DNA of 64,000 bases from Urbifossiella limnaea. GTDB taxonomy: Bacteria; Planctomycetota; Planctomycetia; Gemmatales; Gemmataceae. The position numbers and the translations under genes were made by a program. The notes beneath the pieces are model-generated. The model did no database searches and was not told the DNA's origin. It was given only the letters and a program-made list of their open reading frames with translations. This document shows positions 1 to 27,642 of this stretch, piece by piece (position 1 is the first letter of the stretch; the number at the start of each line of letters is the position of its first letter). The DNA is taken from the NCBI RefSeq assembly GCF_007747215.1, contig NZ_CP036273.1, positions 4,200,322-4,264,321 of the forward strand, given 5' to 3'.

Positions 1-748
1 TCACCACCTCCTCGAGCGCCGTGTTCCCGGCCCGCTCGCCGATGCCGTTGATGGTGCACTCCACCTGCCGGGCGCCCTCCATCAGCGCGGACAGGCTGTT
101 GGCCACGGCCAGCCCCAGGTCGTCGTGGCAGTGGACGCTTAGCACGACGTTGTCCACGCCGCGGACGGTCTGCTTGAGATGGCGGATGACGGAGGCGTAG
201 TGCTGCGGGGTGGCGTAGCCGACGGTGTCCGGGATGTTGAGCGTGGTGGCGCCGGCCTCGATGGCCTTCTCCACGACCTCGGTGAGGAAGTCGAGCTCGG
301 TGCGGGCGGCGTCCTCGGGCGAGAACTCGATGTCGGCGCACAGGTCGCGGGCGCGCTTCACGCCATCGACGGCGCGGGCGACGATCTGCTCGCGCGTCAT
401 CTTCAGCTTGAACTCGCGGTGGATGGCGCTGGTGGCGAGGAAGACGTGGATGCGGCCGCGGGCGGCGTCCTTGACGGCCTCGCCGGCGCGGTCGATGTCG
501 GCCGGGTTACACCGGGCCAGGCCGCAGATGACCGGCCCCTGCACCTTCTGGGCGATGGCGCGGACGCTCTCGAAGTCGCCGGGCGAGGCGATGGGGAAGC
601 CGGCCTCGATCACGTCCACGCCCAAGTCCGCGAGGGCGAGGGCCAGTTCCATCTTCTCGCCGGGGTTCATGCTGCAGCCCGGGCTCTGCTCGCCGTCGCG
701 CAGCGTGGTGTCGAAGATGACGACGCGGTTGGGGTCGGTCGGCGGCAT
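1..748 (-). CDS. leuA: 2-isopropylmalate synthase, C-terminus cut off by window edge
   Basis: First committed step of leucine synthesis: condenses acetyl-CoA with 2-oxoisovalerate in the cytoplasm. About 249 N-terminal residues are present and the gene runs off the left edge. Visible are the [11 protein letters not shown] active-site motif near residue 13, the [15 protein letters not shown] metal-binding motif, and the NGIGERAGN motif typical of the LeuA/homocitrate synthase family. NIPDTVGY and the exact motif spelling favour LeuA over citramalate or homocitrate synthase, although the C-terminal leucine-binding domain is not visible. ATG start at 748, preceded by GAGGA six bases upstream. 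The gene stands behind a leader ORF and hairpins, so attenuation by leucine is inferred. Confidence 0.93.
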
Positions 749-787
749 CGGCTGTCCTCACGGAGATCGTGGTGGTGTAAACGCGAA

Positions 788-815
788 CGGCCCCGGAACC
801 AGAGGTCCGGGGCCG
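788..815 (-). terminator. Candidate attenuator hairpin between leader peptide and leuA
   Basis: Perfect 10-bp stem (788-797 with 806-815, CGGCCCCGGA pairing) with an 8-nt loop, placed between the leader ORF stop (839) and the leuA start (748). Its 5' arm contains GCCCCGG in minus-strand sense. That can pair instead with CCGGGGC at 864-870 inside the leader ORF, just after the leucine codons. The downstream T run is weak (TTCGCGTTT), so it may pause or block ribosome access rather than act as a textbook intrinsic terminator. Confidence 0.5.
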
Positions 816-838
816 CGAAGGTCGGTCGGGTCGGGCGG

Positions 839-922
839 TCAGCCGACGCGACGGGACGAGCGAGCCCCGGCCTGCGTAAGCAGGCACAGGAGGTCGTCGG
901 CAAGTCGCGTGGTGCGGGCCAT
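839..922 (-). CDS. Leucine-rich leader peptide of leuA (candidate attenuation peptide)
   Basis: A 27-codon ORF, MARTTRLADDLLCLL followed by TQAGARSSRRVG, that starts at ATG 922 and ends with TGA at 839. Five of 27 codons are leucine and four fall in the five-codon run LLCLL. A 6-bp hairpin with a TTAC loop (870-885) overlaps those leucine codons, and the bases just after it can pair with the attenuator stem downstream. This is the arrangement of region 1, 2 and 3 in classical leucine attenuators. No strong ribosome-binding site is visible. That it is translated, and its regulatory role, are inference from sequence layout. Confidence 0.55.
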   Translation of the reverse strand: MARTTRLADDLLCLLTQAGARSSRRVG

Positions 923-948
923 CGGCGTCCGAGTGTGTTTCCACCGGC

Positions 949-977
949 AGTGTACACGGCCGCCCCGGGCGGGGCAA
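949..977 (-). promoter_or_regulatory. Predicted sigma-70-type promoter for the leu leader
   Basis: On the minus strand TTGCCC (972-977) is followed by a 17-bp spacer and TACACT (949-954). Transcription would begin near 942, about 20 bases before the leader ORF. It sits just past the stop of the preceding gene (984), so leuA would be transcribed on its own. Confidence 0.5.
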
Positions 978-9197: not shown

Positions 9198-9308
9198 ATG
9201 CCGGCGATGACCTACTCTCGCGCTGGACGCACTACCATCGGCCCCGGGTGCTTATCGGCCGTGTTCGGGATGGGAACGGGAGTTTCCACCCGGGCATGGT
9301 CACCGGCA
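9198..9308 (-). rRNA. rrf: 5S ribosomal RNA
   Basis: About 110 bases. The ends pair (TGCCGGTGA with TCGCCGGCA). Internal conserved blocks are CCCATCCCGAACACGG and CGATGGTAGTGC, followed by GCGAGAGTAGG. It lies about 160 bases downstream of 23S on the same strand. The exact ends may shift by one or two bases. Confidence 0.93.
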
Positions 9309-9470
9309 GTTCGGGTGCGACCGGCGCCCGCCCCCGGGTAGGGGGTGGGGCGCCGCCCGCGTGTACGGGAGGCATCGTGGTGATGCGGGGCGGTGTGGCG
9401 TGTGTGCTTCAACTACCGTGCACCGGCGGCCGAGGCCTCTACCTCCGGGCTGTCCCGGGGGGAGGGGCGG

Positions 9471-12242
<2,772 letters not shown>

Positions 12243-27564: not shown

Positions 27565-27598
27565 CCAATCGCCCAGGGCTTACGCCCTGGGCGATTGG
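27565..27598. repeat. Palindromic intergenic repeat with 15-bp arms
   Basis: CCAATCGCCCAGGGC, TTAC loop, GCCCTGGGCGATTGG: a perfect 15-bp stem. A second small hairpin GCCCC-TTC-GGGGC follows at about 27604-27616. The pair resembles a short interspersed repeat common in planctomycete intergenic DNA. It lies between the 57-codon gene (27382) and the protease stop (27643), so it may also end that transcript. The rest of 27383-27642 is empty. Confidence 0.8.
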
Positions 27599-27642
27599 TT
27601 GCCGCCCCTTCGGGGCTCCGACCCAGGAACCATTCGCGTCGT

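Follow-up and report, generated by a model that had tools for sequence, protein, structure and literature searches.

Positions 2 to 2891 of the window, a 64-kb stretch of Urbifossiella limnaea DNA that was analysed as a whole, carry the 5' part of leuA, a gene upstream of it and, between the two, a short leucine-rich ORF followed by segments that can pair in competing ways. All coordinates are positions in this window, and every leader item lies on the minus strand.

2891-984, minus strand: upstream gene, ending 7 nt ahead of the -35 box TTGCCC
949..977, minus strand: putative sigma-70 promoter TTGCCC-17-TACACT (TTGCCC 977-972, TACACT 954-949)
839..922, minus strand: leader ORF leuL, 27 codons from ATG 922 to TGA 839, translated as MARTTRLADDLLCLLTQAGARSSRRVG and stop
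904-902, minus strand: extra Leu codon CTT (from the translation)
878..892, minus strand: candidate control codons CTC CTG TGC CTG CTT, read as L L C L L (from the translation)
870..885, minus strand: hairpin 1:2, GCCTGC (885-880) with GCAGGC (875-870), 6 bp, overlapping the last control codons
860..870, minus strand: putative antiterminator 5' arm (region 2), CCGGGGC 870-864 and CGC 862-860 (from folding and duplex energy)
807..816, minus strand: region 3, GCGGCCCCGG, terminator 5' arm and at the same time antiterminator 3' arm
787..816, minus strand: putative terminator stem-loop (regions 3:4), fold of -26 kcal/mol, z -4.35
2..748, minus strand: leuA, 2-isopropylmalate synthase, 5' part in the window (NCBIfam TIGR00973 and NF002086; Pfam PF00682)

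A sequence-only reading of this DNA had proposed a leucine attenuator here, and the elements on which it was built, namely the promoter at 977-949, the 27-codon ORF with its LLCLL stretch, the 6-bp hairpin at 870-885 over the Leu codons and a GC hairpin before leuA (given as 788-815, delimited here as 816-787), are all present in the sequence. The promoter agrees with the consensus only moderately and was absent from the output of a stringent promoter scan; its end lies 26 nt from the leader ATG. As a group, leuA upstream regions are modestly enriched in promoter-like pairs (18% vs 1.9% at a high cut-off), and a TANACT-like box occurs near the same place in many relatives. The leader encodes leucine at codons 7, 11, 12, 14 and 15 (CTT, CTC, CTG, CTG and CTT). 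Two weak points named by that reading are real: no clear Shine-Dalgarno sequence was seen on checking the sequence before the leader ORF, and the tail after the 787-816 stem, TCGCGTTTAC, is poor in U, with no T run above three in GTTCGCGTTT. Profile searches against Pfam and NCBIfam gave no family match for the upstream gene.

The stem at 816-787 ends about 38-40 nt ahead of the leuA ATG at 748, and no shuffled sequence folded as stably. Its core, GGCCCCGG..CCGGGGCC, occurs once in the 64 kb and in none of 100 shuffles; the idea that it belongs to a dispersed repeat was rejected, since the genome holds it in 6 places against 4 for a reversed-pattern control. The 5' arm of this stem had been suggested to pair instead with 864-870, and it can: CCGGGGC (870-864) is complementary to GCCCCGG, and the helix is lengthened by pairing of 862-860 with 816-814. 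In the segment 870-803, from which the 3' terminator arm is missing, this alternative fold has the lowest energy (-36.6 kcal/mol, z -2.8), and the region 2:3 duplex reaches -24.5 kcal/mol (p 0.005 when compared with shuffles of region 2). Hairpin 1:2 is also strong in the window (z -3.3), and in its extended form (889-865) it adjoins and partly covers the antiterminator arm.

Elsewhere in the window, 23S and 5S rRNA genes lie at 9199-12239 on the minus strand with no 16S rRNA gene found in the window, so that these rRNA genes are possibly unlinked, and positions 27572-27617 on the plus strand match the Rfam Acido-Lenti-1 RNA (RF01687).

To follow the leader through relatives, leuA-like genes were located in 92 of 95 Gemmataceae genomes, and further loci were added from elsewhere in the class and phylum. 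A leader was counted as Leu-rich when a short ORF within 260 nt of leuA contained at least four Leu in seven residues. Such an ORF was found in 71 of 83 Gemmataceae upstream regions and in 23 of 40 from other Planctomycetia, compared with 5.7% of shuffles; with the stricter cut of at least five Leu in seven, the figures were 59 of 123 and 0.4%. The leader ORF is thus kept throughout the Gemmataceae and in much of the remaining class, and the competing pairings are conserved with it, the outcome on which the sequence-only reading had staked its proposal. The predicted peptides include MNRKLLLLELLLILPLAG (L049), MILLGLLLLLWGESS (L045, from an inner start), MANLLLLLGLLLTLG (L046), MTATNLLLPLLLLAPNGS (L109) and MNQNLLLLQLLLITSGC (L134). 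All six Leu codons (CTT, CTC, CTG, CTA, TTG and TTA) occur in the leaders; because they vary synonymously, it is the amino acid that has been kept and not the DNA. Among loci L002-L031, which comprise the window's clade and its near neighbours, CTT (CUU) accounts for 45% of the Leu codons in leaders and 3.3% of those in leuA of the same loci.

The control regions gave no such pattern. No Leu-rich leader precedes the second leuA-like gene in 8 genomes, and none precedes ilvB in the window's genome or is conserved there in relatives; ilvB and the leuA paralogue were rejected as further targets on this ground. The leader is also missing from some Gemmataceae loci and sub-clades (L069, L071, L073, L075 and L077-L079). 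One of them, L073, has a terminator-like stem, ACCCTGGATCGAAGAAAAATCCGGGGT, before leuA without any Leu-rich ORF and looks like a decayed attenuator. The number of Leu codons differs between the close relatives L060 and L064: in L060 the Leu run has grown to nine consecutive codons through a CTT/CTC repeat.

Most leaders have a stem of roughly -14 to -32 kcal/mol after them. In 69 of 74 leaders outside the window's clade, a T run of at least four stands at the end of this stem (e.g., GACCCTGGGACAAACGAGTCCCAGGGTTTTTTTG in L055), and orthologous stems with U6-U9 tails are found in relatives. Farther upstream, the 5' arm of this stem finds its complement in GUCCUAGG, or in a variant that covaries, at or near the stop codon of the leader ORF; in many species that antiterminator arm contains the stop codon, UAG. 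The compensatory changes predicted for both stems were found in a 41-sequence alignment (A2), in which counts are per sequence and not per evolutionary event. Pairing holds in 96.6% of cells for the terminator helix, with two-sided changes in 8 of 10 pairs, and in 91.1% of cells for the antiterminator helix, with two-sided changes in 6 of 8 pairs. For neither helix did any of 500 shuffles reach the observed pairing, and a slide of a single column lowered the pairing of both sharply. Since both helices use region 3, arms 2, 3 and 4 change together, as in L055 (GTCCTAGG/CCTGGGAC/GTCCCAGG), L068 (ATTCCAGG/CCTGGAAT/GTTCCAGG) and L067 (ATCCTAGG/CCTAGGAC/ATCCTGGG). The region 2:3 duplex averages -16.2 kcal/mol for native pairs, -13.4 for species-swapped pairs and -11.8 for shuffled ones. 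The high pairing probabilities of this helix arise partly by construction, region 2 having been picked as the best complement, and are not our main evidence. The parts of the device are therefore present and conserved, and both competing helices covary in relatives.

Given these parts, the element is very probably a ribosome-mediated transcription attenuator of leuA that senses charged tRNA-Leu, and the earlier attenuator interpretation is supported. RNA polymerase would start at a point upstream of the leader ORF, followed by a ribosome translating the leader. Under a shortage of charged tRNA-Leu, this ribosome would stall on the Leu codons at 892-878, which are rich in rare CUU-type codons, and would cover region 1 while region 2 (870-860) stays free. 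Free region 2 would pair with region 3 (816-807) once the latter has been made, the 816-787 stem would be blocked, and transcription would proceed into leuA. With ample leucine the ribosome would pass region 2 and reach the stop codon, region 2 would be covered or refolded with region 1, and the 3:4 stem would halt transcription before leuA. Leader translation, stalling, termination and the dependence on leucine are what we infer from the sequence.

The geometry of the relatives suggests two ways in which region 2 could be hidden. In many lineages the leader stop codon and region 2 overlap (as in 41 of 106 leaders, the window not among them), and a ribosome at the stop codon would mask region 2 directly. 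In the window's clade (A1) region 2 lies inside the ORF, with the last control codon at most 12 nt before it and the stop codon roughly 17-36 nt after it. With the usual footprint, a ribosome stalled with its A site at codon 11 or 12 should leave region 2 free, and a ribosome at the stop codon may not cover it, so that in this clade a re-formed 1:2 hairpin would be needed. Family-wide, this protector hairpin is weak: native sequences score barely above swapped ones (mean rank 0.40 vs 0.5), and the mean z is -0.64. Because of these tests the 1:2 hairpin was dropped as support for the family as a whole and is used for the clade.

The tail of the stem raises a different possibility for the window's clade, namely that its strong, U-poor hairpin works inefficiently as an intrinsic terminator and is accessory in a leader that still senses leucine, with Rho-dependent termination, pausing or RNA stability as the means of controlling leuA. 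The U tract is indeed poor in 24 of the 28 clade members (a U run of at least four occurs in 4 of 28), and the same genome has a canonical U-rich terminator elsewhere: at the 5S rRNA end, the sole same-genome comparator, the rRNA operon closes in a stem followed by TTTTTCTTTT. However, the hairpin occupies the same position and has a related core as the canonical U6-U9 terminators of sister lineages. Moreover, its tail, with a T fraction of 0.42 and a mean longest run of 3.1 (0.67 and 6.4 in other Gemmataceae), is still enriched in T over the background of 0.22, and the stem is more stable, with a mean of -27.7 kcal/mol compared with -19.5 kcal/mol in other Gemmataceae. RNAalifold on the clade (A1) returned an invariant terminator stem only, and covariation is uninformative there because the stem does not vary. 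We consider an inefficient terminator unlikely; nevertheless, the mode of termination in the window's clade is the weakest step of the attenuator reading. In addition, the clade may represent a variant in which transcription ends at a very stable hairpin that is poor in U.

Control at the level of translation, in which the alternative folds would expose or hide the leuA ribosome-binding site without stopping transcription, is very improbable. Translational T-boxes and the LEU element have been proposed in actinobacteria (PMC1262725), which gives the idea a precedent, but the hairpin at the window's locus ends about 38 nt from the leuA start and excludes the Shine-Dalgarno-like GAGG; since the stem does not extend as far as this site, it is unlikely to sequester it. 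The U run that follows the stem in most other lineages also speaks against such control. We give equally little credence to the view that the leader is an arrest peptide, stalling the ribosome on a small molecule and not for lack of charged tRNA-Leu. A short conserved upstream ORF would be compatible with it, and several leaders share a CGACTT codon pair. However, the non-Leu residues vary freely, the Leu codons sit in different registers and rare Leu codons are favoured; since it is mainly the Leu content that is kept, a small-molecule arrest peptide is unlikely. That a chance ORF merely precedes the terminator of the upstream gene, which does lie on the same strand and close to the -35 box, is hardly credible, given that the leader ORF and the antiterminator are conserved across the class; this role for the hairpin was rejected on synteny, as homologues of 2891-984 occur in only 11 loci. 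A longest-ORF estimate puts the neighbouring upstream gene on the other strand in 60 of 109 loci.

Proteobacteria provide the best-documented examples of leader-peptide attenuation, and there are also cases from Actinobacteria and Firmicutes. The enterobacterial leu attenuator (leuL; Rfam Leu_leader) lies upstream of leuA and encodes a Leu-rich leader peptide with rare Leu codons, and its antiterminator and terminator are mutually exclusive. The planctomycete element shares the Leu-rich leader, the rare Leu codons and the competing antiterminator and terminator before leuA. It differs in having no Rfam match and another spacing, in a layout with the leader stop codon inside the antiterminator arm and, in the window's clade, in an arm inside the ORF and a GC-rich, U-poor terminator. 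The device would thus work like the classical leu attenuator; with no Rfam match, descent from the enterobacterial one is not claimed. Rfam searches gave no Leu_leader match in the window at the gathering threshold, no leader-family match at E ≤ 10 in 700-1020 and none in 20 relatives at E ≤ 5; matches at the leader, at gathering and permissive thresholds, were set aside as chance matches only.

The sequence-only reading had placed the same leu layout in actinobacteria as well, and this requires a caveat. Actinobacteria do have a leader ORF with a Leu-codon run upstream of leuA, as in the planctomycetes, but the effects of leuA leader mutations in Streptomyces coelicolor were not consistent with classical attenuation (PMC1262725). 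In the actinobacterial LEU element, a pseudoknot, the base stem forms between the run of Leu codons and the Shine-Dalgarno sequence of leuA, and no terminator was described for it (PMC1262725), whereas the planctomycete terminator is separate and would compete with an antiterminator. For Staphylococcus aureus, a member of the Firmicutes, a leucine-rich attenuator peptide of the branched-chain amino acid genes is reported (PMC5794164); the likeness to the planctomycete leader lies in the Leu-rich peptide and the kind of gene. The hisS/hisZ histidine leader of bacilli is a further case of leader-peptide attenuation outside Proteobacteria and Actinobacteria, where, to the knowledge of its authors, none had been shown earlier (PMC2965389). 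The planctomycete device likewise lies beyond those two phyla, and it concerns another amino acid, gene and phylum. The sequence-only reading knew of no planctomycete case, and we found no planctomycete leu attenuator in Rfam or in the open-access papers searched; a prior listing is possible, as the subscription literature was mostly outside the search. Full-text searching of the open literature likewise yielded no report of leader peptides or attenuators for Planctomycetes, Gemmata or Rhodopirellula.

Outside the class Planctomycetia the distribution is patchy. Among 20 leuA loci from other planctomycete classes, L136, L148, L152 and L153 have a Leu-rich ORF followed by a U-tailed stem and others do not; the same combination occurs in a Phycisphaeraceae record (L223). 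In Verrucomicrobia (L219 and L264), a Leu-rich leader ORF and a U-tailed GC stem lie upstream of leuA, which suggests from sequence that the device extends into the PVC superphylum. L153 contains tandem Leu-rich ORFs, MNFLTRVELLLLSPFKG and MIKISTNLGLLLLLAPRGAPG, and behind each of them stands a GC stem with a T-rich tail; the arrangement is possibly a double attenuator. The leuA upstream ORFs of L138, L140-L143 and L146 (mostly family f26) have RLxxG-type tails, most with the CGACTT pair; behind several of them lies an inverted repeat but no U-tailed terminator, and these ORFs are possibly a different leader type. At the proteobacterial leuA loci L248, L249, L253, L255, L262 and L263, upstream ORFs end in a Leu run, Pro and stop (LLLLLP or RLLP before the stop codon), mostly without a U-tailed terminator stem.

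These results would extend a textbook regulatory device to the Planctomycetota, where it is conserved over much of the deep class Planctomycetia, and would supply organisms for which genetic tools are scarce with a leucine-responsive control element that is ready to use. They also bear on how gene expression is organised in these bacteria. Gottshall et al. (2014) proposed a spatial segregation of transcription and translation in Gemmata obscuriglobus (cited in PMC6212462, PMC6554331 and PMC5394234). An attenuator works only when the ribosome is within tens of nucleotides behind the polymerase and would therefore be evidence for coupling at leuA. If the mechanism is as we describe it, an attenuator kept by selection in the Gemmataceae argues for such coupling at this gene. 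We think it rather probable that the class-wide leu attenuator in the Planctomycetia, Gemmataceae included, amounts to genomic evidence for coupled transcription and translation, and one reporter on a single gene could test the disputed separation of the two processes in Gemmata.
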